Assembly: GCA_902595725.1 (NCBI GenBank)
Contig: CACJRJ010000013.1
Location: forward strand, 1-38,890
From: an uncultured Pelagibacteraceae bacterium
GTDB taxonomy: Bacteria > Pseudomonadota > Alphaproteobacteria > Pelagibacterales > Pelagibacteraceae
DNA: 38,890 nucleotides
Direction of reading: 5' to 3'
A program made the position numbers and the translations under genes. The notes below the pieces were generated by a model. It saw only the letters and a list, made by a program, of their open reading frames with translations. It ran no database searches and had not been told where the DNA came from. Below, piece after piece: positions 1,813 to 38,890 of the stretch (its first letter is position 1; every line of letters starts with the position of its first letter).

Positions 1813-2364
1813 ATGATAAAAAATAATTATATAAATAGATTAAAAGAGTTGCCTGAAACAACAAGGCAATTTGGTGGTCTTCTTATCTTAACACTTATTA
1901 TAATTTTATCTTTTGGTATTTTAAATATTTATTGGGGAGAAGGAGATGAATTAATTAAAAAAATGAAATTAGAAGAAGAAAGAATTGCAAAAGAAAAAAA
2001 ACTTAACGCACTTATATCAAAACTTCCATCAGGTATTCTAGTAACCTTTGATGGAACAGATAATTTTAGATTGACTGATGAATTATATGAAGCAGTTTGT
2101 AATGCAACAAAACTTCTTCCTCAACGTGCTATCATGGCTGCTCATTTTTTAAATTATGAAGCTTACGAACTATATACTATCAATGGTAATAAAATTGATG
2201 AAACATATGTTAAATGGGATAAAGAGAAAAACAAATGTTTTGCTGGTTACACTGTAAGTGGAGCTAATGTCGGAGTAAATAAAACAGCAAATGTAAGTGG
2301 AGAGGTTTTAAGTTTTTTAAGCACCGGTATTGATACAAGGGTTTATTTTATTAAAAATTTTTAA
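1813..2364 (+). CDS. Hypothetical single-pass membrane protein
   Basis: 183-aa ORF, one hydrophobic segment (GGLLILTLIIILSFGILNIYW) near the N-terminus; starts 8 nt after the MORN gene. Confidence 0.65.
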   Translation: MIKNNYINRLKELPETTRQFGGLLILTLIIILSFGILNIYWGEGDELIKKMKLEEERIAKEKKLNALISKLPSGILVTFDGTDNFRLTDELYEAVCNATKLLPQRAIMAAHFLNYEAYELYTINGNKIDETYVKWDKEKNKCFAGYTVSGANVGVNKTANVSGEVLSFLSTGIDTRVYFIKNF

Positions 2365-2430
2365 GGAGGAAAGTAATAAATTATATAGATTTTATTTTAT
2401 CTTAATTTCGTATAACTTGATTAAGAATTT

Positions 2431-3462: not shown

Positions 3463-3465
3463 ATC

Positions 3466-5619: not shown

Positions 5620-5623
5620 AATT

Positions 5624-7102: not shown

Positions 7103-7110
7103 TTTTAGCT

Positions 7111-8130: not shown

Positions 8131-8135
8131 TTATT

Positions 8136-9476
8136 CTATTTTTTTGGTTGATTTAAAAAAACTTTTGAAGAGTCATCCATTGCTGTTGCCCAAGGTGTAT
8201 GATGTACTGGGGCAATAGATCCTGTAACAGGTGAAGAAAAAGATTTATTTCTATATGTCATAATATCTTCTACTTTATGGTGTTCCCATTCTTTAAAGTG
8301 TTTTCTAATTAACTCAAAATCAATTTTTGGATAATCAGATAGCCCATGAAGTTCTTTAGTATATTCAGTTTGAAAGTCTATCATTTGATCTGGATTTTCT
8401 AATTTTTCTTCTAAAGCAACCCATTTATTTATATCTTTTTCTATTTCTGAGCTATTTGGAATTTTACTTCTACCCATTATTACATCTCTTGCATACCACG
8501 CCTGACAATCAAACATATTAAAAGTATGAAATTGATCTTGCATACCTAAATAAAGTAATTTGTGATTATCTTGCCATACGACACCTTTATATAACTTTGG
8601 TGGATATAATCTGTTTCTAGTTTTTAGCTTAAGATCCTCAGTTAAAAATGGGAAATGGTGAAGATAACCAGAACACAAAATTATTGCATCAGCCTCTTGC
8701 TCATGCCCATCTTTAAAGATTGCTTTATTTCCAACCAGTTTATCTAAATAATGTACTTCTTTTACTCCCTTGGGCCATTTGAATCCCATTGGGTTATTTC
8801 TATAACCTATAGTTACACTTTTAGCTCCATACTTGTGGCATTGAAGAGCAACATCTTCTGCTGAATAACTGCTTCCTAAAACAATAACATTTTTTCCTCT
8901 AAATTCCTCTGCATCTCTAAAATCATGTGAATGCATAATTCTACCTGGAAAAGATTTCATTCCAGGATATTCTGGAATGAATGGAACTGAAAAGTGACCA
9001 GTTGATACAACTACATAATTAAAAATATCTTTTGAAAATTTGTCATTTTTTTTATCATGAGAAGTAATCTCAAAATTATTTCCATCGAAAACAACTTTAG
9101 AAACAGTTGTGCTAAATCTTACTTTATTTTTTAGATTACCTTTTTTTACTCTGCCAGTTATATAATCATATAAAACTTCTCTAGGTGGAAATGATGGAAT
9201 AGGTTTTCCAAAATGTTCATCAAACGAATAGTCGGCAAATTCCAAACATTCTTTTGGACCATTTGACCACAGATACCTATACATACTATTAGGAACAGGA
9301 TCACCATATTGGTCAGATCCAGTTCTCCAACTATAATTCCATAATCCTCCCCAGTCTTCCTGTTTTTCAAAGCAAACTATTTCAGGTATTTTTTCACCTT
9401 TTTTTTCAGCCTGTTCGAAAGCCCTCAACATCGAAAGACCACAAGGTCCAGTACCAATAATAGCTACTTTTGTCAT
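8136..9476 (-). CDS. tmm: Flavin-containing monooxygenase, trimethylamine monooxygenase type
   Basis: GTGPCGLSML (FAD), FMO-identifying motif FPGRIMHSHDFR, GSSYSAEDVALQ (NADPH); overall resembles SAR11/Roseobacter Tmm. Confidence 0.88.
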   Translation of the reverse strand: MTKVAIIGTGPCGLSMLRAFEQAEKKGEKIPEIVCFEKQEDWGGLWNYSWRTGSDQYGDPVPNSMYRYLWSNGPKECLEFADYSFDEHFGKPIPSFPPREVLYDYITGRVKKGNLKNKVRFSTTVSKVVFDGNNFEITSHDKKNDKFSKDIFNYVVVSTGHFSVPFIPEYPGMKSFPGRIMHSHDFRDAEEFRGKNVIVLGSSYSAEDVALQCHKYGAKSVTIGYRNNPMGFKWPKGVKEVHYLDKLVGNKAIFKDGHEQEADAIILCSGYLHHFPFLTEDLKLKTRNRLYPPKLYKGVVWQDNHKLLYLGMQDQFHTFNMFDCQAWYARDVIMGRSKIPNSSEIEKDINKWVALEEKLENPDQMIDFQTEYTKELHGLSDYPKIDFELIRKHFKEWEHHKVEDIMTYRNKSFSSPVTGSIAPVHHTPWATAMDDSSKVFLNQPKK

Positions 9477-16830: not shown

Positions 16831-18513
16831 TTAAAATAAACCTTCTATTTCACCTTTGTTATTTAATTTAATTGAATCTGCAGCAGGCACTTTTGGAAGA
16901 CCTGGCATTGTCATTATTGCTCCACATACAACTACAATAAATTCTGCTCCTGATGATAATCTTACTTCTCTTATTGGAACCACATGCCCAGAAGGGGCAC
17001 CTTTTAAACTAGGGTCGGTTGAAAAGCTGTATTGAGTTTTAGCAACACATATTGGAAGATTTCCATAACCTTTTGACTCAAAATCTTTAAGTTGATCTCT
17101 TATTTTCGTATCGGCCACTACTTCACTTGCATGATAAATTTCTTGTGCGATTGTTTCAATTTTTTTAAATAAAGGCATCTTGTCCTCATATAAATATTTA
17201 AAAGTATTTTTATTATTACTTATATCTACAACAATGTTTGCTAGATCTTTTGTTCCCTCTCCTCCATCTGACCAATGTTTACATATAGATGATTTTACAC
17301 CTAATGTTTTACAAAAATCCATAAGTGCATTAACTTCTTTATCAGTATCTGTGATAAAATGGTTAACGGCTACCACAACTGGTAAGCCAAATTTTCTAAC
17401 GTTATTAATATGTCTTTCAAGATTTACTAAACCTTTATTTAAAGCTTTAACATTTTCATTTTTAAGATCATCTTTAGATACACCACCATGCATTTTTAAA
17501 GCTCTTATTGTTGCAACAATAACTACACAATCAGGTTTTAAATTTGATTTTCTACATTTTATATCTATAAATTTCTCAGCCCCTAAGTCAGCACCAAAAC
17601 CAGCTTCAGTTACAACATAATCTGCTAATTTTAATCCTGTTTTGGTAGCAATGACAGAATTACAACCATGTGCAATATTTGCAAAAGGTCCCCCATGTAT
17701 TATTGCTGGGTTGTTTTCTAATGTTTGTGTCACATTAGGTCTAATTGCATCTTTTAATAAAACAGTCATTGGACCTTGAGCATTTAAGTCTTTTGCATAA
17801 ATTGGTTTTTTATCTCTAGTATAGGCTACAGTAATATTTCCAATTCTATTTTCTAAATCTGTTAAATCATTTGCTAAGCAGAAGATAGCCATTATTTCAG
17901 AAGCTACAGTAATATCAAAACCATCCTGTCTAGGATATCCATTGGCCACACCTCCAAGATCTACTACAATTGATCTTAAAGAACGATCATTCATATCCAT
18001 AACTCTTTTCCAAACAATTCTTCTAACATCAATATTTAATTTATTACCCCAGTAGATATGATTGTCTATCAAAGCAGAAAGAAGATTGTGAGCAGATGTT
18101 ATTGCATGAAAGTCCCCAGTAAAATGCAAATTTATTTGTTCCATAGGAACTACTTGTGCATAACCTCCTCCGGCTGCTCCACCTTTCATTCCAAAAGAAG
18201 GTCCCAAGCTAGGTTCACGAAGACAAACAAGCGATTTTTTTCCAATTTTATTTAGACCATCATTTAGACCAACTGATGTAGTTGTTTTTCCTTCACCAGC
18301 AGGAGTTGGGGTTATTGCGGTAACTAAAATTAATTTTCCATCTTTTTTATTTTTTAAAGTATCTAAGTATTCAGTTTTAATTTTTGCTATATATCTTCCT
18401 ATAGGACTATAGACTTCTGCTTTATCAGGTACATTTAGTCCATTAAGCACTTCTTGAATTGGCTTCATTTTTGCTTCTCTAGCTATTTCAATATCAGATT
18501 TTACTTTGCCCAT
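16831..18513 (-). CDS. fhs: Formate-tetrahydrofolate ligase
   Basis: [21 protein letters not shown]-loop, [36 protein letters not shown]. Confidence 0.97.
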
Positions 18514-18650
18514 TTCAGCTTTCTTATTTTATATATTCCTACTCATTTGAAGCTGGATTAATATCTTCTTTTATGGTTTTTTTAAAGTTCTAAAAAATAT
18601 ATATAAAAAAAATAAAGAACTATTTATACTAATTACGATAAAATTTGATC

Positions 18651-19907
18651 ATGCAAAAATATTCAGTCTTCAGCCTTATCAAAAATGCTTTTAAAGGTCA
18701 TAAAGATTGGGAAGTGGCATGGAAAGACCCAACTCCTAAATCTGAATATGATGTTATAATTATAGGAGGCGGAGGCCATGGTTTAGCCACAGCATATTAC
18801 CTTGCCAAAGAACACAATATTACAAAAGTTGCAATTATTGAAAAAGGCTGGATAGGAGGAGGAAACGTTGGACGGAACACTACTATAATCAGATCAAATT
18901 ATATGCACGATGAAAATGGATTGTTTAGTGAATTCGGTATGGATTTGTGGAGAAATATGAGTCAGGATTTAAATTTTAACGTAATGTTTTCTCCAAGAGG
19001 AATAATTAATCTCGCACATTCTGATGCACAAATGAATGCATATTCTAGGAGAGGAAATTCAATGCGTTTGAATGGAATTGATGCAGTTTTGTTAAATAGA
19101 GAAGAGGTCAAAAAAATTATTCCTATGGCAGATTTTTCTGAAAATGTAAGATTCCCAATTTTTGGTGGACTAATGCAACCTAGCGCAGGAACAGCTAGAC
19201 ATGATGCGGTTGCATGGGGTTATGCACGTCAAGCGGACTCGATGGGAGTAGACATTATTCAAAACTGTGAAGTTACAGGATTTGACATTTCTAATGGAAA
19301 AATTTTGGGAGTAAGAACTTCTAAAGGTGATATTAAAGCAAAAAAAATTGGTCTTTGCGTTGCTGGAAGTACAAATATTTTAGCAGAAAAATTAAACATG
19401 ACATTGCCAATAGAAACACATCTTTTACAGGCATGTGTTTCAGAACCAATTAAACCAATCTTAGACAATGTTGTTACATTTGGAGCTGGACATTTTTATT
19501 GCAGCCAATCTGATAAAGGAGAAATGGTTATGGGTGGAGATCTTGATGGATATAACAGTTATGCTCAAAGAGGAAATCTTCCAACATTACAACATGTATT
19601 AACTGAAGGAATAGCAATGTTTCCGTTTCTAAGTAAATTAAAAATGCTTAGAACATGGGGAGGAATTATGGATATGTCTATGGATGGATCACCTATAATT
19701 GATAAGACACATATTGATGGATTGTATTTAAATTGTGGATGGTGTTATGGTGGTTTTAAAGCAACTCCTGCCTCCGGATGGACTTTTGCTCATACAATTG
19801 CTCAAGATAGACCGCACGAACTAAATGAAGGTTATAGTTTAAATAGGTTTAGTACTGGACATTTAATTGATGAAAAAGGTCTTGGAACCAAAACCTGGAT
19901 TTCTTGA
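18651..19907 (+). CDS. soxB: Sarcosine oxidase beta subunit
   Basis: IIIGGGGHGLATAYYLA FAD motif, GGGNVGRNTTIIRSNY; followed by soxD, soxA, soxG. ORF track starts at an upstream TTG (18645); ATG at 18651 is the more likely start. Confidence 0.96.
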   Translation: MQKYSVFSLIKNAFKGHKDWEVAWKDPTPKSEYDVIIIGGGGHGLATAYYLAKEHNITKVAIIEKGWIGGGNVGRNTTIIRSNYMHDENGLFSEFGMDLWRNMSQDLNFNVMFSPRGIINLAHSDAQMNAYSRRGNSMRLNGIDAVLLNREEVKKIIPMADFSENVRFPIFGGLMQPSAGTARHDAVAWGYARQADSMGVDIIQNCEVTGFDISNGKILGVRTSKGDIKAKKIGLCVAGSTNILAEKLNMTLPIETHLLQACVSEPIKPILDNVVTFGAGHFYCSQSDKGEMVMGGDLDGYNSYAQRGNLPTLQHVLTEGIAMFPFLSKLKMLRTWGGIMDMSMDGSPIIDKTHIDGLYLNCGWCYGGFKATPASGWTFAHTIAQDRPHELNEGYSLNRFSTGHLIDEKGLGTKTWIS

Positions 19908-20174
19908 ATGCTACATATTAAATGTCCTCACTGTGGATTACGATCTCAAAATGAATTTTCATATGGTGGCGATGCAACAATTAAAAGACCAGAATTAAAC
20001 AAAGAAGTTTCTGATCAAGATTGGGATAATTTTGTATATTTACGTAAAAGCCCAAGAGGGAAACATCTAGAATTATGGCAACATATTTCTGGATGTAGAC
20101 AATGGATTAAAGTTGAAAGAGATACATTAACCCACGAAATATTTAAAACATTAAAAGCAAACGAAGAATTATAA
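19908..20174 (+). CDS. soxD: Sarcosine oxidase delta subunit
   Basis: 88 aa with CPHCGLRSQNEFSYGGDA; immediately after soxB. Confidence 0.96.
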   Translation: MLHIKCPHCGLRSQNEFSYGGDATIKRPELNKEVSDQDWDNFVYLRKSPRGKHLELWQHISGCRQWIKVERDTLTHEIFKTLKANEEL

Positions 20175-20176
20175 AG

Positions 20177-23173
20177 ATGTCAGAGAATTTTAGATTAGAC
20201 AAAGGTGGATTAATAAATAGAGATAAAAAACTTTCATTTAAATTCAATGGTAAAAAGTATTTTGGTTATGAAGGTGATACATTAGCTTCAGCTTTAATTG
20301 CAAATGGAGTTCATTTAGTTGGTAGAAGTTTTAAATATCATAGGCCCAGAGGTTTTTTTGGAGCAGGTGTAGACGAACCTTATGCGATAGTGCAAATGAA
20401 TAGAAATAATGAAGTTGATCCTAATGTAAGAGCAACGGAACAAGAGTTATTTGAAGGTTTAGAAGCAAAAAGTGTTAATTGTTGGCCAAATGTAGATTTT
20501 GATATTGGTGCAATAAATAATTTTTTAGGTAAATTTTTCCCTGCAGGTTTTTACTATAAAACTTTTATGTGGCCCAAAAGCTTTTGGTATAAGTTATATG
20601 AGCCGATTATTAGAAAAGCAGCAGGTTTTGGAGCAGCTTCAATAAAACATGATAAAGAAAAATATGAACATAAATACGAATACTGTGATCTATTAATTAC
20701 AGGATCTGGTCCTTCAGGTTTAGCAAGTGCCTATGCAGCAGCGCAAAACGGAGCAAAAGTAATTTTAGCTGAAGATAAATCGAGGTTTGGCGGAAGTCTT
20801 CTAACGAGCGAAGTTACAATTGGAAATCAAAGTGGAAAAGAATGGGCAGAAAAAATAATATCTGAACTTAAATTAATGCCAAATGTAGTTGTAAAAAATA
20901 GATCTCAAGTTTTTGGTTATTATGATCATAATATGCTTGTTATGTCAGAGAGAGTTAGTGATCATTTACCTAAAACAGAAAAATATATTCCCAAACAGAG
21001 ACTTTGGTACATCCGTGCAAAAGAAGTTATTATTTCTTCTGGATCAATAGAAAGACCTATAGTTTTTGGAAACAATGATACCCCAGGCGTTATGCTTTCA
21101 TCAGCAGCAAAAGAATATTTAAAAATTTATGGAGTATTAGTTGGAAAAAAACCATTAATATTCACTAATAATGATAGCGGATATGAAACTGCTATTGAAT
21201 TCAAAAAAAATGGAATAGATCCAATCGTATTAGATACAAGAAGAGATCCTAATTCAGAAATTATAAAAGAAGCAAAAGACTTAAATATAAGTATAAAGTC
21301 TTCCTACGTTGTTGTAGCAGCCAAAGGTTATAAAAAAGTTAATTCTGCAGATATTGCCAAAATATCTGATGATAAAAAAAATATAAGTAACATTGAAAAT
21401 ATAAAATGTGATTGTATTTGTGTTTCAGGATTTTGGACACCAACAATTCATTTAGCTTCACAATCAGGTAATAAAACTAAATTCAATGAAAAAATAGATT
21501 CATTTATTCCAAGTCAACCAAAGCAAAAGGAAACTACTCTTGGATCTGCTAGTGGAATTTTTACGCTAGAAGAAACATTGAAAACATCATTTGAAAAAGG
21601 AAATGAATTATCAAAACAAATAACAAATAAAGAAAATAAAGTTTCTATTCCTACCGTTGTTGAAAAAAAATCTTCTAATCATGATAAATTTTGGTGTGTA
21701 CCATTACCTGAAGGTAAAAATTATAAAAGATTCTTAGATTTTCAAAACGATGTTGCAGTCTCTGATATACAGCTCGCATTAAGAGAAGGTTACAGATCAA
21801 TCGAACACGTTAAAAGATATACGACATTAGGAATGGCCACAGACCAAGGAAGGACAAGTAATCTTAATGGACTACAATTAGTCTCAGATATAGAAAATAA
21901 AGTTGTGCCTCAAGTAGGCCATACTACTTTTAGACCACCTTATTCACCCGTTTCTATAGGAGCTATCGTTGGTAGAGAAATTGGAAAACATTCAAAACCA
22001 ACAAGAAAGTCACCAATGCATTATTGGCACGAAAAAAATAATGCTGTATTTGTCGATGCAGGTGTTTGGCTACGTCCAAGATATTATAAACGAGGAAATG
22101 AAAACTTATTTGAAGCTTCAAAAAGAGAAGCAAAAAATGTTAGACAAAATGTAGGTGTGTGTGATGTAACAACTTTAGGCAAAATTGATATCAAAGGACC
22201 TGATTCAGCAGAATTTTTAAATAGGGTTTATACAAATGCTTGGCTTAAATTACCTGTAGGTAAAGCTAGATATGGCGTGATGTTAAGAGAAGATGGAATT
22301 GTAATGGACGATGGAACAACAACTAGAATTTCAGAAAACCATTATCACATGACAACTACTACTGCTCAAGCTGCAAACGTATTATCTCATTTAGAATATT
22401 ATTTACAATTAGTATGGCCTGAACTGAATGTAAATGTAGTTTCTTCTACAGAACAGTGGGCAGGTGCTGCAATAGCTGGACCAAAATCCAGATATGTATT
22501 GCAAAAATTATTTCCAGATTTAAATGTTTCAAACGAAGGTTTGCCATTTATGGGTTATATGGAAGGTAATTTATTCGGCGTCAATGCAAAAATTTATAGA
22601 ATTTCATTTTCTGGTGAACTTGCTTACGAGGTAAATGTAGAGTCTGATAATGGTAATTATATGTGGGAAAAAATAATGGAAATTGGAAAAGAGTTTAATA
22701 TCCAACCATATGGAACAGAGGCATTATCGACCTTAAGAATTGAAATGGGACACGTCGCAGGATCTGAATTAGATGGACGTACAATTCCATACGATAATTC
22801 ACTAGATGGATTAGTTAGTAAAAAGAAAGATTTTATTGGAAAAAGATCCTTAAGCAAAGCAGCTTATATTGCTTCAGACAGACAGAAAGTTGTTGGAGTT
22901 ATTCCGTTAGATAAAAAAACGAGTATACCAGAAGGTTCATATATAGTTAAGGACGCAAAAGCGAAACTTCCAAATCCTAAATTAGGCCATGTCTCTGCTT
23001 CTTGCTGGAGCGTTGAGTATGATAACCCTTTTTCACTAGCAATAATTAAAGATGGAAAAAATATGATTGGACAAAAATTGTTTGCACTGTCTCCATTGAA
23101 AAATAAAACTATACCAGTTGAGATAGTATCATCGCATTATGTTGATCCTAAAGGAGAAAGGGTGAGATCGTGA
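20177..23173 (+). CDS. soxA: Sarcosine oxidase alpha subunit
   Basis: 998 aa; N-terminal FNGKKYFGYEGDTLASALIANGV, GSGPSGLASAYAAAQNGAKVILAE, C-terminal aminomethyltransferase-like domain. Confidence 0.96.
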   Translation: MSENFRLDKGGLINRDKKLSFKFNGKKYFGYEGDTLASALIANGVHLVGRSFKYHRPRGFFGAGVDEPYAIVQMNRNNEVDPNVRATEQELFEGLEAKSVNCWPNVDFDIGAINNFLGKFFPAGFYYKTFMWPKSFWYKLYEPIIRKAAGFGAASIKHDKEKYEHKYEYCDLLITGSGPSGLASAYAAAQNGAKVILAEDKSRFGGSLLTSEVTIGNQSGKEWAEKIISELKLMPNVVVKNRSQVFGYYDHNMLVMSERVSDHLPKTEKYIPKQRLWYIRAKEVIISSGSIERPIVFGNNDTPGVMLSSAAKEYLKIYGVLVGKKPLIFTNNDSGYETAIEFKKNGIDPIVLDTRRDPNSEIIKEAKDLNISIKSSYVVVAAKGYKKVNSADIAKISDDKKNISNIENIKCDCICVSGFWTPTIHLASQSGNKTKFNEKIDSFIPSQPKQKETTLGSASGIFTLEETLKTSFEKGNELSKQITNKENKVSIPTVVEKKSSNHDKFWCVPLPEGKNYKRFLDFQNDVAVSDIQLALREGYRSIEHVKRYTTLGMATDQGRTSNLNGLQLVSDIENKVVPQVGHTTFRPPYSPVSIGAIVGREIGKHSKPTRKSPMHYWHEKNNAVFVDAGVWLRPRYYKRGNENLFEASKREAKNVRQNVGVCDVTTLGKIDIKGPDSAEFLNRVYTNAWLKLPVGKARYGVMLREDGIVMDDGTTTRISENHYHMTTTTAQAANVLSHLEYYLQLVWPELNVNVVSSTEQWAGAAIAGPKSRYVLQKLFPDLNVSNEGLPFMGYMEGNLFGVNAKIYRISFSGELAYEVNVESDNGNYMWEKIMEIGKEFNIQPYGTEALSTLRIEMGHVAGSELDGRTIPYDNSLDGLVSKKKDFIGKRSLSKAAYIASDRQKVVGVIPLDKKTSIPEGSYIVKDAKAKLPNPKLGHVSASCWSVEYDNPFSLAIIKDGKNMIGQKLFALSPLKNKTIPVEIVSSHYVDPKGERVRS

Positions 23174-23757
23174 CATCAGTATCAGCTTTAAATCATATTC
23201 ATAAAACAGGTCTTTTCGGAAATTATGAGAATAAAAATGAAGAAAATTTATTAAAAGTTTCAGAAATTAAAAATTTACTTATTGTTCAGATAGTTCAGTA
23301 TAAAAATTCGAAAGTTTCATTTGAAAATATTGATATTGATAATTTAAAATTAAAAAACTTACCACTAAGTGTTGTCAGTAATAAAGACACAAGAATTTTA
23401 TGGAACGGTCCTAAAAATTGGCTTTTAATATCAATAAAAAAAGATTTACTTAAAAATATCTCTAAAGTTTTTAAAGAAACAGATTTTGCTGTTACAGATT
23501 TATCTCACTCTCGCGCTGCAATGCAAATAGAAGGTCATGATGCAAAAGAAGTTTTAAAAAAGGGATGTCCATTTAACTTTAATATTTTAGAAAAAAATAA
23601 TTCAATAAATTCAACTTATAATAGTATAGCATTTACAGCAGATATGACAGATGACCAGCCTAATAAAATAAGATTGTTTACTCTTAGAAGTTTTGGAGAG
23701 TCTTTTTATCATTCAATAACAGATTCTTCATTAGAATTTGGTTACAAAGCAATATAA
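23170..23757 (+). CDS. soxG: Sarcosine oxidase gamma subunit
   Basis: GTG start overlapping the soxA stop (GTGA); position in soxBDAG; DLSHSRAAMQIEGHDAKEVLKKGCPFNF is SoxG-like. Confidence 0.92.
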   Translation: MTSVSALNHIHKTGLFGNYENKNEENLLKVSEIKNLLIVQIVQYKNSKVSFENIDIDNLKLKNLPLSVVSNKDTRILWNGPKNWLLISIKKDLLKNISKVFKETDFAVTDLSHSRAAMQIEGHDAKEVLKKGCPFNFNILEKNNSINSTYNSIAFTADMTDDQPNKIRLFTLRSFGESFYHSITDSSLEFGYKAI

Positions 23758-27764: not shown

Positions 27765-28730
27765 ATGAATTATAAAATTGATAATTTACAATATTGTAAT
27801 TGGTCTAGAGAAATTTTTGAAATTAACAGAGAAGCAGAATTAGATGCTGTTCATGTTACAATAGTTTATCATGAAGATTATGACGAATTATTAAAAAGAA
27901 TAGATGAATGGAATATATATTTTAAAGATAATTCTGATTTAATTTTTCATGGTAAAAGTTATAAAGATATAGAAAAAGCTAAAGAACAAAAAAAAACAGC
28001 TATATTTTTTGGTTTTCAAAACTGCTCACCAATCGAAGATGACATTAACTTAATTGAAAAAATACATCATCTAGGATGTAAATTTATGCAGCTTACTTAT
28101 AACAATCAATCTCTTCTAGCCACAGGATGTTATGAAAAAATTGATAGTGGAGTTACTAATTTTGGAAAAGAAGTTATTAAAGAAATGAATAGAGTTGGTA
28201 TTGTAATTGACATGTCTCATTCTGCGGAAAAAAGTACATTTGACGCAATAGAGATAAGTGAAAAGCCAATTGCAATAACTCATGCAAACCCATTATTTTG
28301 GCACAAGGCAATCAGAAATAAATCTAATGAATTATTAAAAACTTTAGCTGATAGCGGTGGCATGATTGGTCTTTCATTATATCCTCACCACCTTAAAGAT
28401 GGAACTAATTGTAATTTAGAAAACTTTTGTGAAATGACAGCAAAAACTGCTGAATTGATAGGAGTAAAGAATATAGGCATAGGTTCAGATTTATGTTTAA
28501 AACAACCAGATGCAATAGTTGAATGGATGAGAAATGGTACTTGGACAAAAACAAAAAATTATGGAGAAGGAGCAAAAAATAAAGCTGGTTTTCCAAAACA
28601 ACCAGCCTGGTTTGAAGATGCAAGAGGATTTAAAAATTTGGAAACTGGCCTAAAAAAAATTGGATTTAACCAAGGTGAAGTAGAAGGAATTTTAGGAAAT
28701 AATTGGTATAATTTTTATAAAAATATTTAA
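27765..28730 (+). CDS. M19 (renal/membrane dipeptidase)-like protein with altered N-terminal metal motif
   Basis: Retains MSHSAEKSTFDAIEISEKPIAITHANP and GIGSDLCL of the M19 fold; lacks the usual N-terminal HxD. Confidence 0.8.
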   Translation: MNYKIDNLQYCNWSREIFEINREAELDAVHVTIVYHEDYDELLKRIDEWNIYFKDNSDLIFHGKSYKDIEKAKEQKKTAIFFGFQNCSPIEDDINLIEKIHHLGCKFMQLTYNNQSLLATGCYEKIDSGVTNFGKEVIKEMNRVGIVIDMSHSAEKSTFDAIEISEKPIAITHANPLFWHKAIRNKSNELLKTLADSGGMIGLSLYPHHLKDGTNCNLENFCEMTAKTAELIGVKNIGIGSDLCLKQPDAIVEWMRNGTWTKTKNYGEGAKNKAGFPKQPAWFEDARGFKNLETGLKKIGFNQGEVEGILGNNWYNFYKNI

Positions 28731-28731
28731 A

Positions 28732-30390
28732 ATGCAAATAGAACTAAGAGATCCAAAGGTTATTATGAAATTATCAAGACTTGGATCTTTTCATCAATCA
28801 AAATTATCTTTTTTAAGATCTTTTTTAAAAGAATTTAAAGATTGGGAATATAATAAAAATCTATTTGATTTAGACGAAAATGGATATGGAAGAGCAGTTT
28901 ATTCATTTTCAAAAAAAAATAGAACTTATTCGTTAATTTGCTTTGCAAATAAAATAAGTGACGAAGAAAGATCAGATAGAGTAATTGCAACAAAATGGGA
29001 TGCAGCTTTTGTATTACATGATGGGATTCCTACAAAACAAGATATTGAGAGATTAGAACTAAATGTTCCAAAACAAGAAGTTGGTAGACTTTCATATAAG
29101 GAATTAACGCTTTCAAGGGCAAATAAATCAGTCAGAGCTTTTGAGCATGTTATAGATAGCCTTTCAAATGGAAGACAACCTGATAAAGAATTTTTATCAA
29201 AAGTTGGATACCTTTATAGAACTACTGCTGTTTATGGATCAGGAAAATTTGGACTGGCTGATAGGTTTAGAATTAAAAATAGAGAAGAAATTTGTGGACC
29301 ATTCAGATTGGAAATGATGTTAGTTTATTTAGTTAGACAATTTACTTTTGATCAAGTTAATCATATAGCAAATTATAGAAATCCAAAAAAGTTTGTTGAA
29401 CTAGATAAAGAAATTTCTAGAAATTTAGGAATTGGAAATTCTACAGGTCTTGGAATGGCACCTTTTATTGTAAATCATCCAACACTTTTAAATAATTGGA
29501 TACTTGCCAGGGAAAAAGCTTTAAAAAAAATTAGAGAAGTAAAAAATGTAAAAAAAGAAGATTTTGATATTTTTGTTGAATGCTTAAAAAAATCTCTAAA
29601 GAATATAACCTCTTGGAATACGGAAAGTGAATTTCAAAAAAATAAAATAAAACAATTAATAACAGATTTAAATAAATTGCTAAATTTTATTAGTACTTTT
29701 AATTTTCAAGAAGAATTTTCTTTTAATAATCTATATTTATGGACAGAAAAAAATCTAGATTTAGAGTGTTCAGAGTATATTGTTTCCATGATGCTAGAAC
29801 CTTACGATTCTATTGTTGATCCTTTAATTCATCAAATGAGTTCTGAGGAAGAAAAATTCTTTAATATACCAGGAGACAGAACTATACTAGATTTAAGAAA
29901 TATATTAGAAGAAAAATACACTGATATTTTAAAAATTGATTTTAATAAAAAAGAAAGCAATGAAAATTTTTGGTTTATTTCAAAAAATAAAGAGGAACCA
30001 AGAATAGCAAAAAGATATAACGAACAAGGATCAGATTTAGAACAACCTTTGGCAATAGCCAGGGATATAAAAAAGCTATATGAAAGAATATCAAATCAAA
30101 AAAATAGCTTAAGTATCGGCAGATTCTTAATAGAAAATAATGACCTTAGGCATGTTGTAAGAAGAGCATTTATTTCAGAAAAATTTCCTTACTCAGAAAT
30201 TCAAGATAATACTATTGGATCTAATCTAATGCCTATAGATATGTTGAGGTTGAAATTATCATTTTTTGGAGCAGTAAAATTTGATCCTAAATCAGATAAA
30301 TGGTTAAGAATAAGTATGTTTCAAGGCGCACCATTACCAAATGAATTAAAAAAATTTAATGATCACTGGGTGTATAATTCTTTAAATTAA
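28732..30390 (+). CDS. Conserved protein of unknown function, 552 aa
   Basis: Full-length ORF starting 1 nt after the M19-like gene and overlapping the downstream DUF3726-like gene; no domain I can name with confidence. Confidence 0.8.
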   Translation: MQIELRDPKVIMKLSRLGSFHQSKLSFLRSFLKEFKDWEYNKNLFDLDENGYGRAVYSFSKKNRTYSLICFANKISDEERSDRVIATKWDAAFVLHDGIPTKQDIERLELNVPKQEVGRLSYKELTLSRANKSVRAFEHVIDSLSNGRQPDKEFLSKVGYLYRTTAVYGSGKFGLADRFRIKNREEICGPFRLEMMLVYLVRQFTFDQVNHIANYRNPKKFVELDKEISRNLGIGNSTGLGMAPFIVNHPTLLNNWILAREKALKKIREVKNVKKEDFDIFVECLKKSLKNITSWNTESEFQKNKIKQLITDLNKLLNFISTFNFQEEFSFNNLYLWTEKNLDLECSEYIVSMMLEPYDSIVDPLIHQMSSEEEKFFNIPGDRTILDLRNILEEKYTDILKIDFNKKESNENFWFISKNKEEPRIAKRYNEQGSDLEQPLAIARDIKKLYERISNQKNSLSIGRFLIENNDLRHVVRRAFISEKFPYSEIQDNTIGSNLMPIDMLRLKLSFFGAVKFDPKSDKWLRISMFQGAPLPNELKKFNDHWVYNSLN

Positions 30391-31001
30391 TGAAAACATT
30401 AAGTGAAATAGACACGACTTCAAAAAGAGCAACAAAAAGCGCAGGTTTTTCTTGGGGAATTGCTGAGGAAGTAGGAAAGAATATGAGGTTGCTAGAATTA
30501 TTTGGATTAGCTGGAATAAAAAATTTAAATAAATATTTAAAAGATTGTAAAAACAAGCAGTTCCAAAAAATAGCTTTAATCTCAGATATAAATGAAGCAA
30601 ACAAAAATTCTTTTTGTCCAATTATTTTAGGTACTAATTTTATTGATCAGGTAAATTTGCTAAACAAGAAAAATAATATTCAAATATCAAATGTAGCTTT
30701 TCCAATATTATTTTTACCTTTCGTAAGTAGAGCATCTGAGATTATAGGTAAAAAAATTTTTTTAAAAATTGATGAAAAAGAATTTTTACTTAATCTAAAT
30801 CAGTCTATCTATTCAAATTATTTAAAAAATGAAATTTTAGAAAATTGTAAGATTATAAATATTAGTTTTTTAGAAAATAATAATTTATTTAACGAAAATG
30901 AATGGAGTGAGCTTTACAAATTGTCAGAAGAAACATTTGTTGAAGAGACAGAATCGCTGAAAATAGGGGGCGCTGGCGCTGGATTAACTGATAATGATTG
31001 A
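30390..31001 (+). CDS. DUF3726-like protein
   Basis: SEIDTTSKRATKSAGFSWGIAEEVGKNMRLLELFGLAGI N-terminus and conserved C-terminal LYKLSEETFVEETESLKIGGAGAGLTDND resemble DUF3726 proteins (from memory). Confidence 0.7.
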   Translation: MKTLSEIDTTSKRATKSAGFSWGIAEEVGKNMRLLELFGLAGIKNLNKYLKDCKNKQFQKIALISDINEANKNSFCPIILGTNFIDQVNLLNKKNNIQISNVAFPILFLPFVSRASEIIGKKIFLKIDEKEFLLNLNQSIYSNYLKNEILENCKIINISFLENNNLFNENEWSELYKLSEETFVEETESLKIGGAGAGLTDND

Positions 31002-31749: not shown

Positions 31750-33108
31750 TTAACCTTTAACTACTTCTCTTGTATTTGCGTGGAAAGATTCTTTAAATGG
31801 TATATCAACCACTACTGCATCAACAGGTGTTCCTGGAGTATCAGAATATTTAGAAGGTAAATGAACTTTATATTTAGTTCCAACTTTACCTTTAGGAAAA
31901 CCGTTAGCATTTAAAGTTCCATCAAAAGGAACATATCCCATTGCAATGTTTTGTTTTTTTTCAGGGTGATACCAAGGCGATGTAATAAACCCTACAGGAT
32001 CTCCACCATCAGCATTTGATATTAACCAAAAATCTGGTGCATATTCTTCAATTGGTTTTCCTCCTAATTCAAGTCCAACTAATTGAAGTTTATAAGGTTT
32101 TTTTCCTGCCTTAATTTCAGCACCCATTTTTTCTAAAGCTGCTTTACCAACATAATCAGTCTTCTTATTCCATTCACCTTTTCCTGATAAAGAAACTTGA
32201 TAACCAAGGTTGCACTGAAAAGGATTATGTTGTTGATCCATGTCTTGTCCCCATGAAAGAATCCCTGCTTGAATTCTTCTATGATGAGCGGGAGCGATAA
32301 CCATTAAATTATGTTTTTTTCCAGCATCAAGAACAGCGTTCCACATATCATCAGCATATAAAGTTGCATTTCTTAAATATATTTCATATCCAGCTTCTCC
32401 TGAGAAACCAGATTGAGAAATTACACAGCTTCTTCCAGCAACTTTAACCTCAGCCAAGCCATAGAAAGGCATATTGTCCAGATCAACTTGATCACCAAGC
32501 AAATCTTTCATTAAAGCTTTTGATTTTGGGCCTTGAATTTGTACAGGGCAAGCGTCAATTTCTTCAACTGTGCAATTAAATCTTCCATCATGATTAACAC
32601 CTTGAAGATACATTCCAATATCAGAGTCTGATAATGAAAACCAAAATTCATCTTTTGAAATTCTAAGAAGAATTGGATCATTTAAAACTCCACCATAAGC
32701 ATTACATAAAATTACATATCTTGCTCTCATTGGAGAGATTTTGGTTGCGTCTCTAGTTATTACATAGTCAGTAAATTTTTCTGCGTCTGGGCCTTTTACT
32801 CTAATTTGTCTTTCAACAGCAACATTCCACATTGTAACATGATTAACAATCGCATCATATTCAACCATTGCTCCACCATCTTCAGGCTTAACATAGCCTC
32901 TTGGATGATAAATACGATTATAAACTGTTGCTCTCCAACAACCTGCTTGCATTGATAAATGCCAATAAGGAGATTTTCTTACTCTTGTTGAAATTAACAT
33001 TTCAACTTTTGTTGGTCCACTCTGTCTTAAATTGTATGGAACTTCACGATCTGATTGATCAACTGAAGTTACATGTTTTAGTTTAGTATAGTCAAATTCA
33101 TTAGACAT
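31750..33108 (-). CDS. GcvT-family (aminomethyltransferase/DmdA-like) putative demethylase, 452 aa
   Basis: GcvT fold reading: VNHVTMWNVAVERQIRVKGPDAEKF, YGGVLNDPILLRISKDEFWFSLSDSDIG, VQIQGPKSKALM, ISQSGFSGEAGYEIYL, ILSWGQDMDQQHNPFQCNLG. Confidence 0.88.
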   Translation of the reverse strand: MSNEFDYTKLKHVTSVDQSDREVPYNLRQSGPTKVEMLISTRVRKSPYWHLSMQAGCWRATVYNRIYHPRGYVKPEDGGAMVEYDAIVNHVTMWNVAVERQIRVKGPDAEKFTDYVITRDATKISPMRARYVILCNAYGGVLNDPILLRISKDEFWFSLSDSDIGMYLQGVNHDGRFNCTVEEIDACPVQIQGPKSKALMKDLLGDQVDLDNMPFYGLAEVKVAGRSCVISQSGFSGEAGYEIYLRNATLYADDMWNAVLDAGKKHNLMVIAPAHHRRIQAGILSWGQDMDQQHNPFQCNLGYQVSLSGKGEWNKKTDYVGKAALEKMGAEIKAGKKPYKLQLVGLELGGKPIEEYAPDFWLISNADGGDPVGFITSPWYHPEKKQNIAMGYVPFDGTLNANGFPKGKVGTKYKVHLPSKYSDTPGTPVDAVVVDIPFKESFHANTREVVKG

Positions 33109-33829
33109 ATTTGTTCTCCATCAACCACTTGTTTGTTTCCTTCAAGCCGCCGAATGTATAAATGTGGAAGAAATCAGTATGCGATTTAACTTTCCCAATT
33201 AAGTCATTTGGGTCTTTAGGTTTCAATAAATCTAACGCCTTACTAAAATTAGATTTAAGAAAGTTTATGGAATTTTTTGCACCTACAATATTAGCAAATT
33301 TAATTAAGCTAGTGATTTTTAGTGGTCCAGTAATTCCGACATGAACTGGTACTGTTTGTTTAGAAATAAAGTCTACTATTAATTGAGGATCTAATAACCA
33401 TTGAGTCACTATATAGTCCGCATAAGGCTTTTTATCTTTCATAGCTTCTTCTAATTTTGAATCGGATATATCAGGACTCCCCTCTGGATGTCCAGCGATT
33501 CCTATCTTCATCTTTTCAAAATATCCTGTCTCCAATAGTTGTATTGAGCTATCAAATTTTCCAATAGGGTCTCTACTGCCGCCTATAACTAAAGCTTGCT
33601 TTACACCTACATTTTTACATCTATTAACAAAATCTTTTAGTTGTTCTTCATTTTCAATAGATCTAGCTGGAAAATGGGGTATTGGATTGAAGCCTTTTTT
33701 GACTAATTTAGAAGCTTGTTCTGAGGTTTCTTTATAATCACCACCAGGTAGCATAGTTACATATACATCCTTTAATGCTGGCAAAGTATCTAAGTCAGTT
33801 TTAGGACCAATTTCTAAAGAAAAATTCAT
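33101..33829 (-). CDS. Short MetF-like methylenetetrahydrofolate reductase
   Basis: 242 aa; MNFSLEIGPKTD N-terminus, FPARSIENEEQLKDFV, ALVIGGSRDPIGKFDSSIQLL, IGIAGHPEGSPDI, DYIVTQWLLDPQLIVDFI. Confidence 0.85.
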   Translation of the reverse strand: MNFSLEIGPKTDLDTLPALKDVYVTMLPGGDYKETSEQASKLVKKGFNPIPHFPARSIENEEQLKDFVNRCKNVGVKQALVIGGSRDPIGKFDSSIQLLETGYFEKMKIGIAGHPEGSPDISDSKLEEAMKDKKPYADYIVTQWLLDPQLIVDFISKQTVPVHVGITGPLKITSLIKFANIVGAKNSINFLKSNFSKALDLLKPKDPNDLIGKVKSHTDFFHIYTFGGLKETNKWLMENKYV

Positions 33830-33892: not shown

Positions 33893-34777
33893 TTATCTTT
33901 TTATTCCTCTATGCTTTTGTATTCTTCGACCATATTCTTGAGCAGCCCTATCAAAAATTATCGCTAAAGCTACTATCGCTAAACCGTTAAACAATCCTAG
34001 AGCCAAATATTGGTTTAAAACTGCTCTTAAAATAGGCACTCCTAAACCTTTTACTCCAATCATAGAAGCAATAACAACCATTGCTAAAGCCATCATAATT
34101 GTTTGATTAACACCAGCAAATACAGTTGGAAGAGCCAAAGGTATTTGTACGGTTCTTAATTTTTGTAATTTTGTTGCACCAAAAGCTTCACTTGCTTCTA
34201 TTGTTTCTTTATCTACTTCTCTTATACCTAAGTTTGTTAACCTTATTATCGGTGGAACTGCATATATACAAATAGCTATTAAACCAGGAACTTTACCTAT
34301 ACCAAGTAACATAAGTATTGGAATTAAATAAACAAAACTTGGAATTGTTTGCATCATATCTAAAACAGGTAATATTGTTCTTTCAGCCCTATTAGAACGA
34401 GCCATTATAACACCCATTGGTATTCCTACAGTCATACATATGATTACACATACAGTTATGATTGCGACTGTAGCCATACAATCTTTCCACATTCCAAAGT
34501 AACCTATTAAAAAGAAAGATATTGCTGCACCTAAAACAAGCTTCCAACTTTTTGATGCCATCCAGGCCAAACCGCAAATTATACCTATGATTATTGGCCA
34601 TGGAGAATTCATCATCAATTTTTCTAACCAGACTAAAAAATATAATAATGGATCAAAAAATGATTCTATACTATCTCCATATGCTCTTGAAAAATCTCTA
34701 AAAGCGAAATCGATACTTTTTCTAAATTCAGCAAGCGCCGAACGTTCCATAACAGGAAACTTAGTAAAAAATTCCAT
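33893..34777 (-). CDS. Glycine betaine/proline-type ABC permease (single ProW domain)
   Basis: 294 aa; MMQTIPSFVYLIPILMLLGIGKVPGLIAICIYAVPPIIRLTNLGIREVDKETIEASEAFGATKLQKLRTVQIPLALP. Confidence 0.92.
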   Translation of the reverse strand: MEFFTKFPVMERSALAEFRKSIDFAFRDFSRAYGDSIESFFDPLLYFLVWLEKLMMNSPWPIIIGIICGLAWMASKSWKLVLGAAISFFLIGYFGMWKDCMATVAIITVCVIICMTVGIPMGVIMARSNRAERTILPVLDMMQTIPSFVYLIPILMLLGIGKVPGLIAICIYAVPPIIRLTNLGIREVDKETIEASEAFGATKLQKLRTVQIPLALPTVFAGVNQTIMMALAMVVIASMIGVKGLGVPILRAVLNQYLALGLFNGLAIVALAIIFDRAAQEYGRRIQKHRGIKR

Positions 34778-34836: not shown

Positions 34837-35856
34837 TTAAAGACCAGCTTTGATTTTTTTCTTAGCTGATGAAGATACCCATTTACTCCATAGATCTTCA
34901 TGCTTTTTCAAAAACTCAATTGCTGCATCTGAACCTTTAGCTTGATTGTCTGCCATGTATACAAGCATTCCATTCATAATATCACCAGGATAAGTACGTT
35001 TTTCAACATACGCCACAGCTTCTTTTCCACCATTTTCTACGAAGCTTTTAGTAATAAGTGAATTTACTTCTGACTTTGTCCAAGCAGTTTGTTTTGGATT
35101 TGCACACTCGCCAGCTGGTTTCATTATGCAATTGTCCCAGTTATCTCTTCCAGCAAAATCTACACCAAAAGGAACTGGAATTAATCCATATTTTCCAACC
35201 ATTGAAGTTGGGTTCCAGTAATAACCAAACCATGGTTTTCCTGAGTCTGATGCTTTTGAAATTGTTCCATCTAGACCTGCAGCAGAACCTGGATCAATTA
35301 AATTCCAACCTTTTTTCTCCATTTCGTAAGCTACAAATAAATTTGCATTTGCTAATTGACATCCCCAACCTGCAGGACATCCTACAAAAGCTCCTCTAGA
35401 AGGGTCTTCTTTATCTGGAAACCATTCTGGATGCTCAAGTATTTCAAGAGCAGTCATTCCTTTTATCTGAGGATACTTCTCAACAGTTCCAGGAGTTATC
35501 CACCAACCTTCTCCAAGTCCAGTAATCGGAGCTTTATTCGCTACGAATATTCTTTTTTCACTTACTGCTACTTTTAAAGGTTCGTAAACAGCATTTGCCC
35601 ATTGTTCAGGGTTCATGTCTGGTGTTCCTTTATCATTCATTGAAGTAAAAGTTGGCATAGTTGCACCAGGCACTAATTCAACCTCACAACCATATCCTTT
35701 TTCTAAAATGATCTTATCTACGTTAGCCATCAATTCAGCTGACGCCCAGTTTTGCTCAGCAATAACTAGCTTTCCACATCCTGCATTAGCAACACCACTA
35801 AATGAAGTGAAGCCTAAAACTACAAGAGCTGAAAGAATTATATTTTTTATTTTCAT
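34837..35856 (-). CDS. Glycine betaine/proline-type ABC substrate-binding protein (OpuAC/ProX)
   Basis: Signal peptide; CGKLVIAEQNWASAELMANVDKIILEKGYGCEVELVPGATMPTFTSM, PWFGYYWNPTSMVGKYGLIPVPF. Confidence 0.93.
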   Translation of the reverse strand: MKIKNIILSALVVLGFTSFSGVANAGCGKLVIAEQNWASAELMANVDKIILEKGYGCEVELVPGATMPTFTSMNDKGTPDMNPEQWANAVYEPLKVAVSEKRIFVANKAPITGLGEGWWITPGTVEKYPQIKGMTALEILEHPEWFPDKEDPSRGAFVGCPAGWGCQLANANLFVAYEMEKKGWNLIDPGSAAGLDGTISKASDSGKPWFGYYWNPTSMVGKYGLIPVPFGVDFAGRDNWDNCIMKPAGECANPKQTAWTKSEVNSLITKSFVENGGKEAVAYVEKRTYPGDIMNGMLVYMADNQAKGSDAAIEFLKKHEDLWSKWVSSSAKKKIKAGL

Positions 35857-35995: not shown

Positions 35996-37036
35996 ATGAA
36001 AAAAGATTTAATAACAAGATTAAATGAAGGACCTGTTCTTTGTGCAGAAGGTTACCTTTTTGCAATGGAAAGAAGAGGATATTTGTCAGCTGGAGGATTT
36101 GTTCCAACAGTTGTTTTAGAAAACCCTGATGTAGTTACTCAATTACATAGAGAATTTATTAGAGCAGGATCTGATGTCGTTCAAGCATTTACTTATTACG
36201 GTCATAGAGAAAAATTAAGAATTATAGGAAAAGAAGATTTACTTGAACCAATGCAGAAAAATGCACTTAAAATTGCAAAAGATGCTGCAGCTGAATTCAA
36301 AGATTTAGATTTAATGGTATGCGGTGATGTTGCTAATACAAATATTTTTGATCCAAAAGACAGCTCAACATTTAAAGAATGTCAAAAAATGTATGAAGAA
36401 CAAGTTAGATGGGCAAAAGAAGCTGGAGTTGATTTCATTGTAGCAGAAACAATTAATTGGGTTGATGAAATGAAAATTGCTCTAAAAGCTATTAAGGATG
36501 AAGGTTTAATAGCAGTTGCAAATTTTGCAATACCAAGAGGAGATTTAACAAGAGATGGATACACAGCTCAAGACGCTTGTAAAATAATTGAAGACCTTGG
36601 AGCAGATGTTGTTGGTTTAAATTGTTATAGAGGTCCAAAAATGACAATGAAATTGCTTAAAGAAGTTAGAAAAAATGTTTCTTGTCATGTAGCAGGTCTA
36701 CCCGTTCCATACAGAACTACTGAAGAAGAACCAGGTTTTTTAAATCAAACAGATCATGGTTGTGATTGTATACCTGGAGGAAATGCTTTCCCTGTAGCTC
36801 TAGATAATCTATTTTGTAATAGATTTGAAATGGCAGAATTCGCAAAAGATTGTTTAAAACAAAATATTAATTTTATTGGAATTTGTTGTGGGGCAGAAGC
36901 TCACCATGTAAGAGAAATGGCAGTGGCAATTGGAAAAAAACCAATTTCTATGATGTATATGCCCGATATGAGCAAACATTTTCATCATGGAACTGATAAA
37001 ACTTTGAAAAAAGTTAACAAAGAAATTAAATACTAG
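35996..37036 (+). CDS. bhmT: Betaine-homocysteine S-methyltransferase-like (homocysteine S-methyltransferase family)
   Basis: Homocysteine/zinc-binding Cys residues VVGLNCYRGP and FIGICCGAEAHHVREMA; AGSDVVQAFTYYGHREKL. Confidence 0.88.
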   Translation: MKKDLITRLNEGPVLCAEGYLFAMERRGYLSAGGFVPTVVLENPDVVTQLHREFIRAGSDVVQAFTYYGHREKLRIIGKEDLLEPMQKNALKIAKDAAAEFKDLDLMVCGDVANTNIFDPKDSSTFKECQKMYEEQVRWAKEAGVDFIVAETINWVDEMKIALKAIKDEGLIAVANFAIPRGDLTRDGYTAQDACKIIEDLGADVVGLNCYRGPKMTMKLLKEVRKNVSCHVAGLPVPYRTTEEEPGFLNQTDHGCDCIPGGNAFPVALDNLFCNRFEMAEFAKDCLKQNINFIGICCGAEAHHVREMAVAIGKKPISMMYMPDMSKHFHHGTDKTLKKVNKEIKY

Positions 37037-37038: not shown

Positions 37039-38890
37039 ATGGAAAATCATGCCAAAGTAGTAATAATTGGTGGAGGTGTTGTTGGTTGCTCAATTCTTTA
37101 TCATCTTTCAAAATTTGGAATGAAAGATTGTGTTTTGCTTGAAAGAAACGAGTTAACTTCAGGATCGTCTTGGCATGCCGCTGGAAATGTTCATGTAATC
37201 TCTAATGATCCAAATATTTCTAGAATGATGGCCTACACAATTGGTCTTTACAAAGAAATAGAAAAAGAGTCAGGACACTCTTGCGGATTTAAACCAAGTG
37301 GAGGATTTTATTTAGCTTCAAATGATGTCTGGGCAGAATATCTAAAAAGAGAAAGATCAAAAGCAAGATATATGGGTCTAGACCAAGAGTTTATTTCACT
37401 TGAAGAAGTAAAAAAGAAAAATCCATTAATTGACCCATCCAGATATTTATTAGCATTGTGGGATCCAATAGATGGAGAGGTTGACCCATCAGGAGTTACC
37501 TATGCTTTTGCTAAAGCCGCCAAAGTTCATGGAGGAAAATATTATACGCACACAGTTGTTAAAGATACAAAGCAAAAAGAAGATGGTTCATGGAATATAG
37601 TTACTGATAAAGGAAATATAAATACTGAGATTGTTATTAATGCTGGAGGACTATGGGCAAGAGAAGTTGGAAATTTAGCTGGATTAAATTTACCAGTACA
37701 GCCTATGGAGCATCATTATTTAATTACAGAAGCTATTCCAGAAATTGAAGCATTAGGAGATCAAAGACTTCCGATTGGCACAGATTTTGAAGGTAATATT
37801 TATTTTAGGCAAGAAGGAAAAGGTATGTTGCTTGGCACATATGAGCAAAAGTCTACTCCTTGGAAAGTAGAAGGAACTCCAATGAATTTTGGGCATGAAC
37901 TTTTAGAACCAAAATTAGATAATATTCAAGATAGATTAGCTATTGGATTTGAGAGAATGCCAGCCTTAGAAAAAGCAGGAATAAAAAATATAGTAAATGG
38001 ACCATTTACATTTGGCCCAGATGGAAGCCCTTTGATTGGTCCTGTTCCTGGGATGAAAAACTACTGGGTAGCCGTTGGTGTTATGGCAGGATTTTGCCAA
38101 GGAGGTGGAGTTGGAAAATGTATTGCAGAATGGATTATAGATGGTGAACCATCAATTGATGTTTGGGCTATGGATGTTGCAAGATTTGGAGATTATGCAT
38201 CTCCACAATATGGAACAATTAAATCATCAGAAAATTACGAAAGAAGATTTATAATGACTTTTCCAAACGAAACTTTACCAAAAGGTAGAAAACAAAAAAC
38301 AACAGCCTTATATGATCGATTTGTTGAGCAAGGAGCTGTAATGGGAGATTCTTTTGGTTTAGAAAATGTTTTGTGGTTTGCTAATAATAAAAAAGATGCT
38401 TACGAAGAACCAACAATTAAAAGATCAAGATCTCATAATTATGTTTCAAAAGAAGTAATAAATGTAAGAGAAAATGTAGGTGTAACTGAAGTAGCTAACT
38501 TTTCAAAGCATGAATTCAAAGGCCCAGATGCTAGAAAATTTTTAGATCATATTATGGCAGGCAAGTTACCAAAACCTGGAAGAATTTCTTTAACACCAAT
38601 GCTTACATATAGGGGAAAACTTTATGGCGACTTAACAGTTGCATGCTTAGACGAAAATGAATTTTTGGTTTTTGGATCTGGAGCAGCACAAGAAATGCAC
38701 AGAAGATGGTTTGAAAGCCACTTAGAAAAATTTAATTTACAATACAAAAATAGATCTGATGAGTTTCACGGACTTGGCATTGCGGGTCCAAAATCTAGAG
38801 ATCTTTTGCAAAAAATTGTCAGAGAAAATGTTTCTAATGATTGTTTTAAATTTAGAGATTCCAGAAAAATGTTTGTTGCAGGTGTTCCTG
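37039..38890 (+). CDS. Dimethylglycine-dehydrogenase-like FAD oxidoreductase with C-terminal GcvT domain, 3'-truncated by window edge
   Basis: ATG at 37039; open to window end (not in ORF track because no stop). VVIIGGGVVGCSILYHLSKFG FAD motif, SGSSWHAAGNVH, C-terminal GcvT domain beginning around KSRSHNYVSKEVINVRENVGVTEVANFSKHEFKGPDARKFLDHIM. Confidence 0.88.
   Translation, partial: MENHAKVVIIGGGVVGCSILYHLSKFGMKDCVLLERNELTSGSSWHAAGNVHVISNDPNISRMMAYTIGLYKEIEKESGHSCGFKPSGGFYLASNDVWAEYLKRERSKARYMGLDQEFISLEEVKKKNPLIDPSRYLLALWDPIDGEVDPSGVTYAFAKAAKVHGGKYYTHTVVKDTKQKEDGSWNIVTDKGNINTEIVINAGGLWAREVGNLAGLNLPVQPMEHHYLITEAIPEIEALGDQRLPIGTDFEGNIYFRQEGKGMLLGTYEQKSTPWKVEGTPMNFGHELLEPKLDNIQDRLAIGFERMPALEKAGIKNIVNGPFTFGPDGSPLIGPVPGMKNYWVAVGVMAGFCQGGGVGKCIAEWIIDGEPSIDVWAMDVARFGDYASPQYGTIKSSENYERRFIMTFPNETLPKGRKQKTTALYDRFVEQGAVMGDSFGLENVLWFANNKKDAYEEPTIKRSRSHNYVSKEVINVRENVGVTEVANFSKHEFKGPDARKFLDHIMAGKLPKPGRISLTPMLTYRGKLYGDLTVACLDENEFLVFGSGAAQEMHRRWFESHLEKFNLQYKNRSDEFHGLGIAGPKSRDLLQKIVRENVSNDCFKFRDSRKMFVAGVP

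Follow-up and report, generated by a model that had tools for sequence, protein, structure and literature searches.

A GcvT-fold methyltransferase coupled to a MetF-like protein in SAR11 as a candidate cobalamin-independent glycine betaine demethylase

The 38,890-nucleotide stretch of DNA analysed here (contig CACJRJ010000013.1 of an uncultured Pelagibacteraceae bacterium, called the window) carries on its minus strand two overlapping genes whose products may initiate the catabolism of glycine betaine. The gene at 31750..33108 encodes a 452-residue GcvT-fold tetrahydrofolate (THF) methyltransferase, AMT (GCV_T, 136 bits), for which model scores, tree and gene neighbourhoods lead us to propose the role of a glycine betaine:THF methyltransferase. 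We infer its substrate, reaction and direction, and put at roughly 60% the probability that AMT, with its GcvT/DmdA fold, demethylates glycine betaine without cobalamin and is coupled to oxidation by MetF. The partner gene, at 33101..33829 on the same strand, encodes a 242-residue MetF-like protein, by phmmer and Foldseek of the SYK-6 (LigM-linked) MTHFR type, for which we propose the role of a 5-methyl-THF oxidase. Such a methyltransferase would add a fourth biochemical way of taking the first methyl off betaine, one that SAR11, other marine Pseudomonadota and haloarchaea would have in common. GbcAB, BHMT and MtgBCD share with AMT the proposed step, from glycine betaine to dimethylglycine, and the same genomic partners; GbcAB uses O2, BHMT homocysteine and MtgBCD cobalamin, whereas in AMT, which shows no sequence relationship to them, THF itself would accept the methyl.

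Glycine betaine, a common salt-protectant, ranks among the sea's most abundant nitrogen-containing organic osmolytes, and SAR11 bacteria are among the ocean's most abundant heterotrophs. A 2025 study proposes that the first betaine demethylation in SAR11 is carried out by BHMT only, so that betaine use would be tied to methionine synthesis (PMC12478193). If our reading is true, a folate-dependent enzyme would uncouple betaine use in SAR11 from methionine demand and explain how these cells burn betaine methyl groups for energy. It would also offer a candidate first step to haloarchaea and other bacteria in which enzymes for dimethylglycine are present but a known betaine demethylase is not, and would bring quaternary ammonium donors within the chemistry of the GcvT fold.

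The stop of the MetF-like gene and the start of AMT overlap by 8 nt (33101..33108, minus strand), which presumably couples their translation. In 80/80 SAR11 loci compared, the MetF gene lies directly upstream of AMT on the same strand with an overlap of exactly 8 nt, and because it is identical in every locus we do not regard this overlap as due to chance. Across these loci AMT identity is at least 93.6% and MetF identity 82-99%. The window genome is itself a SAR11 genome, and the best AMT matches were found in Pelagibacteraceae single-cell genomes (94-99% identity). The first-pass annotation of this DNA had described two minus-strand ORFs overlapping by 8 nt and, in the GcvT-family protein, the motifs GGVLNDPILLRI and FWFSLSDSDIG; both ORFs and both motifs are present, and the strict co-occurrence of the two genes was seen in all 80 loci. 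Its interpretation is supported in part, as to the position of AMT outside the GcvT clade, the kind of MetF partner and the gene linkage, and a methylated osmolyte is still the likely substrate, but its description of the pair as undescribed has to be withdrawn: SAR11_1265 was noted in 2011 as an AMT of unknown substrate that adjoins metF (SAR11_1264) and lies close to dmdA (Sun et al. 2011, PMC3160333). We equate the window pair with SAR11_1265/SAR11_1264 of 'Ca. Pelagibacter ubique' HTCC1062 by description rather than by comparison with that genome, both being a DmdA-related AMT adjoining metF, which in SAR11 Ia is core (PMC3160333, PMC5069961). A 2016 study reported that the SAR11_1265/SAR11_1264 mRNAs drop together under sulfur-limited and stationary sampling (0.20/0.10 and 0.12/0.10 in the LS and CS samples; PMC5069961), and a 2013 metagenome study still named a SAR11 cluster 'aminomethyltransferase unknown substrate' (PMC3686209). 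Our literature search found no paper that gives the SAR11_1265/1264 pair a function. The published guess was demethylation of MMPA, whereas the betaine role is the proposal of the present analysis.

To which family does AMT belong? AMT contains the Pfam GCV_T domains of GcvT, yet it scores below the cut-offs of the GcvT models TIGR00528 and PRK00389 (131.6 vs 235.85 and 149 vs 300 bits), of the DmdA model NF009133 (229.5 vs 410 bits) and of the LigM/DesA models NF047885 and NF047633 (36.9 vs 580 and 42.9 vs 800 bits). The TMAO demethylase (Tdm) model NF053776 gave 145 vs 1100 bits, with only positions 403-721 of its 763 matched. The nearest solved structure is that of DmdA (3tfh, 145.8 bits); the AlphaFold model of AMT, built from 47 SAR11 rows, has a pLDDT of 39. 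In a maximum-likelihood tree, 24 AMT orthologues from SAR11, other Pseudomonadota and haloarchaea formed one clade (100/100) inside the DmdA superclade (99/98), apart from DmdA (100/100), GcvT and the FAD-fused GcvT domains. By sequence, AMT is therefore neither GcvT nor DmdA and forms its own sister-type clade beside DmdA; its position outside the true GcvT clade bears on the phylogenetic check put forward at first reading. AMT is 28% identical to the DmdA of its own genome and about 83 residues longer (452 vs 369 aa), in keeping with the earlier view that it is not canonical SAR11 DmdA but some 80 residues longer. The possibility that these two genes are left over from ordinary glycine cleavage was considered and rejected on the tree and the model scores.

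The alignment also bears on the folate site. The N-D of the NDP motif is common to 7/7 DmdA and 7/7 DmdA-like proteins, whereas GcvT has D-D-L in 5/5; AMT carries N143-D144-P145, so that the DmdA-like substitution of the GcvT Asp-Asp recognized in the first-pass annotation is borne out, and the folate-site residues S158, E242 and Y244 are conserved as well. With DmdA (NF009133; PDB 3tfh-3tfj) AMT thus has in common its fold, the NDP motif, the folate-site Ser/Glu/Tyr, the superclade and the proposed 5-methyl-THF product, and differs from it by a score well under the family cut-off, a longer N-terminus, a separate clade, other neighbour genes and a Phe in place of the DMSP-site Trp. This Phe, F235 in AMT, is invariant across the 24 AMT rows; the Trp is taken from PMC7487153, whose W171 we matched to W197 by our own reading, and the same position also varies among the DmdA-model proteins. 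H68, W58, W286 and H275 are likewise almost without variation across the AMT clade. A further DmdA-like group (L140, L147-L152) is 34-38% identical to AMT and, where scored, just under the DmdA cut-off with 345-390 bits; its neighbours on a plasmid of Phaeobacter are genes for OsmC, enoyl-CoA hydratase and acyl-CoA synthetase, and the L148 member adjoins a MetF-like gene.

The closeness to DmdA raises the question of whether AMT acts on DMSP or on a product of it. A role for AMT as another DMSP demethylase, not orthologous to DmdA, would suit its nearest structure, the shared motif and folate-site residues and the resemblance of DMSP to betaine. We consider this quite improbable given the score of 229.5 bits against a cut-off of 410, the separate clade and the invariant Phe at the DMSP-site Trp; moreover, the genes that recur around AMT concern betaine, not DMSP, and the window genome already has a DmdA over the cut-off. 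The guess made in 2011 for SAR11_1265, MMPA demethylation and with it loss of the second DMSP methyl, was argued from its relatedness to dmdA and a similar metagenomic abundance (PMC3160333). Only 7 of 17 AMT-carrying genomes have a DmdA over the cut-off, which weakens DMSP and MMPA alike as substrates. In six near-complete genomes (G075, G247, G286, G407, G469 and G701) no other protein outscores the genome's own AMT on the DmdA model, so that no MMPA would arise there from DmdA. Since the haloarchaeal and f194 AMT loci described below are moreover betaine loci, demethylation of MMPA is the least probable of the readings considered.

By phmmer the MetF-like protein matched the SYK-6 MTHFR 7xg9 with E=6.3e-31, against 0.024 for the Thermus MTHFR, and Foldseek with the model of the protein (pLDDT 60) returned 7xg9/7xlf as top matches. 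E28, H88 and Q183 of E. coli MetF are kept. It stays far below the cut-off of the classical MetF model TIGR00676 (26.5 vs 293.7 bits) and just exceeds that of the Pfam MTHFR model (26.8 vs 24). In sequence and predicted fold the partner is thus closest to, and classed here as, a SYK-6-type MTHFR, a subfamily described as preferring 5-methyl-THF oxidation beside a LigM-type demethylase (review, PMC13001107), which fits the MetF role assigned to it earlier. The LigM/DesA and SYK-6 MTHFR system (PDB 5tl4; 7xg9, 7xlf) resembles the present pair in that a GcvT-fold demethylase yielding 5-methyl-THF stands beside an MTHFR of the same subfamily; it differs in that its substrates are aryl methyl ethers, that LigM/DesA are very distant from AMT (37-43 bits) and that the MetF here has 242 residues. 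Besides the MetF-like protein, no MTHFR was found in the window genome (84% complete) or in those other SAR11 genomes that gave a match. As SAR11 are reported to be without MetE, MetH and MtgBCDE (PMC12478193), a reductive MetF would therefore be of little use to them. A genome of the same family without a close AMT match (G098) has a classical MetF (294 bits, G098:C1:530436-531284) in place of the short one.

What are the genes that surround the pair? Upstream, on the minus strand, lie genes for a ProW/ChoW-type betaine/choline ABC permease (33893..34777; TIGR03416 262 bits and PRK10952 250 bits, both below their cut-offs) and an OpuAC/ProX-type substrate-binding protein (34837..35856; PF04069, 148 bits), each of which adjoins the pair in 21 of the 42 SAR11 loci with full flanks. 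They are followed on the plus strand by a gene for a BHMT-like homocysteine S-methyltransferase (35996..37036; PF02574, 143 bits), so that the linkage to a betaine-type transporter and BHMT noted at first reading is there. Next comes a gene for a dimethylglycine/sarcosine dehydrogenase (DMGDH)-like FAD protein with a GcvT domain (37039..38890, plus strand; NCBIfam FAD and GcvT domains), cut by the window end and 38% identical to the DMGDH-like neighbour of AMT in locus L120. At 8 kb from the pair, soxB, soxA and soxG-like genes of the heterotetrameric sarcosine/N-methyl amino acid oxidase type (18645..23757, plus strand; from ORFs) are found, and a formate-THF ligase gene (fhs; 16831..18513, minus strand) has homologues that flank AMT elsewhere. 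The window genome has two BHMT-like genes, 48% identical. Directly upstream of the second (C17:12391-13416, locus L171) is a SAM-V riboswitch (53.9 bits), whereas a search for one at the window gene gave no Rfam match; the window BHMT may therefore serve betaine catabolism rather than methionine supply.

Outside SAR11, the neighbourhoods of AMT tell a similar story. Orthologues at 53-94% identity occur in 13 of 289 genomes of the class, the window genome included, as well as in non-alphaproteobacteria of the same phylum and, at 50-56% identity, on megaplasmids of haloarchaea, which were sampled through plasmid records. The closest relatives have the gene order AMT, DMGDH-like, EtfB, EtfA, to which L120 adds a FixC-like flavoprotein that we read as an ETF-quinone oxidoreductase. 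Of the AMT loci, 16/23 have a DMGDH-like gene no farther than about 10 kb away, as against 0/9 of the DmdA loci taken as controls from an overlapping set of genomes (Fisher p=0.0004), or, counted by genus, 11/17 and 0/6 (p=0.009); none was within reach in the AMT carriers L123, L125, L129, L115 and L135. Homologues of soxA/soxB flank AMT in L121, L124, L126, L128 and L131, those of fhs in L112, L114, L128 and L132-L134, and MetF and ETF/FixC-like genes are also found nearby. The haloarchaeal AMT genes stand mostly in C1/betaine islands with MTHFR, folD, fhs (annotated formate--THF ligase), glyA, formate dehydrogenase, a BCCT transporter and DMG-oxidase-like FAD proteins.

It could be asked whether AMT is itself an accessory that loads formaldehyde or methylene, released by dimethylglycine/sarcosine oxidation or by a Rieske demethylase, to give 5,10-methylene-THF. 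The GcvT domains of DMGDH and sarcosine oxidase do make 5,10-methylene-THF, and such enzymes adjoin AMT. We find this very improbable, since the DMGDH-like and sarcosine oxidase-type neighbours carry a GcvT domain of their own, AMT has Asn at the first Asp of the GcvT D-D and groups with the methyl transferase DmdA, and coupling to MetF makes most sense for 5-methyl-THF.

The strongest association with betaine came from f194, a family of the same phylum and another class, with 101 genomes of which 28 have AMT and 73 do not. GbdR, by its NCBIfam name and as established in Pseudomonas, activates choline/betaine catabolism. A GbdR-type regulator is encoded in 28/28 genomes with AMT and 4/73 without (p=5e-21, uncorrected for ancestry, with genomes that are not independent and come mainly from one genus), at 3.3-10 kb from AMT in all 28, and the link holds across three genera. 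The four exceptions with GbdR and no AMT comprise two with GbcA over the cut-off, one with a GbcA-like protein and one whose GbdR has an internal stop. GbcA over the curated cut-off, which a divergent GbcA could escape, was absent from 24 of the 28 AMT genomes; the other four each carry a second GbdR gene, with one copy about 3 kb from GbcA and the other at 4-10 kb from AMT. An MTTB/MtgB protein was absent from all 28 and from 33 of 34 AMT-carrying genomes tested. This pattern argues that AMT stands in the place of GbcA, in operons whose other genes are those of the later steps. AMT thus behaves as a glycine betaine catabolic enzyme should, co-occurring with GbdR and DMGDH and standing in for GbcA/MtgB, and its link to betaine is also seen independently, through neighbour genes, in alphaproteobacteria and archaea. 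The presence of GbcA in the four AMT genomes and of BHMT in several alphaproteobacteria, SAR11 included, counts against this reading.

Together, the neighbour genes and the GbdR/GbcA evidence narrow the methylated osmolyte proposed in the first-pass annotation to glycine betaine as the candidate. It is unlikely that AMT instead demethylates another betaine-linked osmolyte to THF, such as a choline derivative, stachydrine, homarine, carnitine or dimethylsulfonioacetate. GcvT-fold enzymes have varied donors, and GbdR regulons, like betaine-type transporters, can extend to related compounds; a Rieske oxygenase (L130:11261-12490; 125 bits to GbcA, cut-off 670) is directly beside MetF-AMT in the SAR11 relative G207, and one distantly like GbcA is near AMT in Haloarcula. 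Against such a substrate, the neighbours of AMT encode the two later steps of betaine breakdown, AMT replaces GbcA beside GbdR, and genes for pyridine, proline-betaine or carnitine breakdown did not recur in the neighbourhoods examined. A search for literature linking homarine to AMT found none.

In the pathway that we propose, glycine betaine would enter by ABC or BCCT transport, and AMT would convert it with THF to dimethylglycine and 5-methyl-THF, one of the methyls on the quaternary nitrogen being passed to N5 of THF. The coupled MetF-like protein, presumably a flavoprotein, would oxidize 5-methyl-THF to 5,10-methylene-THF. DMGDH-like and Sox proteins would then take dimethylglycine to glycine, the two remaining methyls yielding methylene-THF, and Fhs and related folate enzymes would release the C1 unit as formate with a gain of ATP. 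In SAR11 this catabolic route would run alongside the homocysteine-dependent BHMT route. We know of no precedent for a GcvT-type enzyme that passes a methyl from a quaternary ammonium donor to THF, and our literature search found no report of a THF-dependent betaine demethylase with the GcvT fold. LigM donates a methyl to THF from a substrate with a phenolate leaving group, to which the amine leaving group proposed here may be chemically comparable.

Two further parts of the window deserve mention. At 27765-31001 lies a block of genes, for an M19 dipeptidase, a DUF3726 protein and a 552-residue protein that matched no Pfam family, which adjoins AMT in 38 of the 42 SAR11 loci with full flanks. 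This block may belong to the pathway, because M19 dipeptidase genes also adjoin dimethylglycine genes in Pseudomonas. Finally, judging from ORFs only, positions 1-9476 carry betaine/TMAO-type ABC transporter genes, with two permease units (binding protein, ATPase and a 717-residue permease), and near them a gene for a flavin monooxygenase that resembles Tmm.
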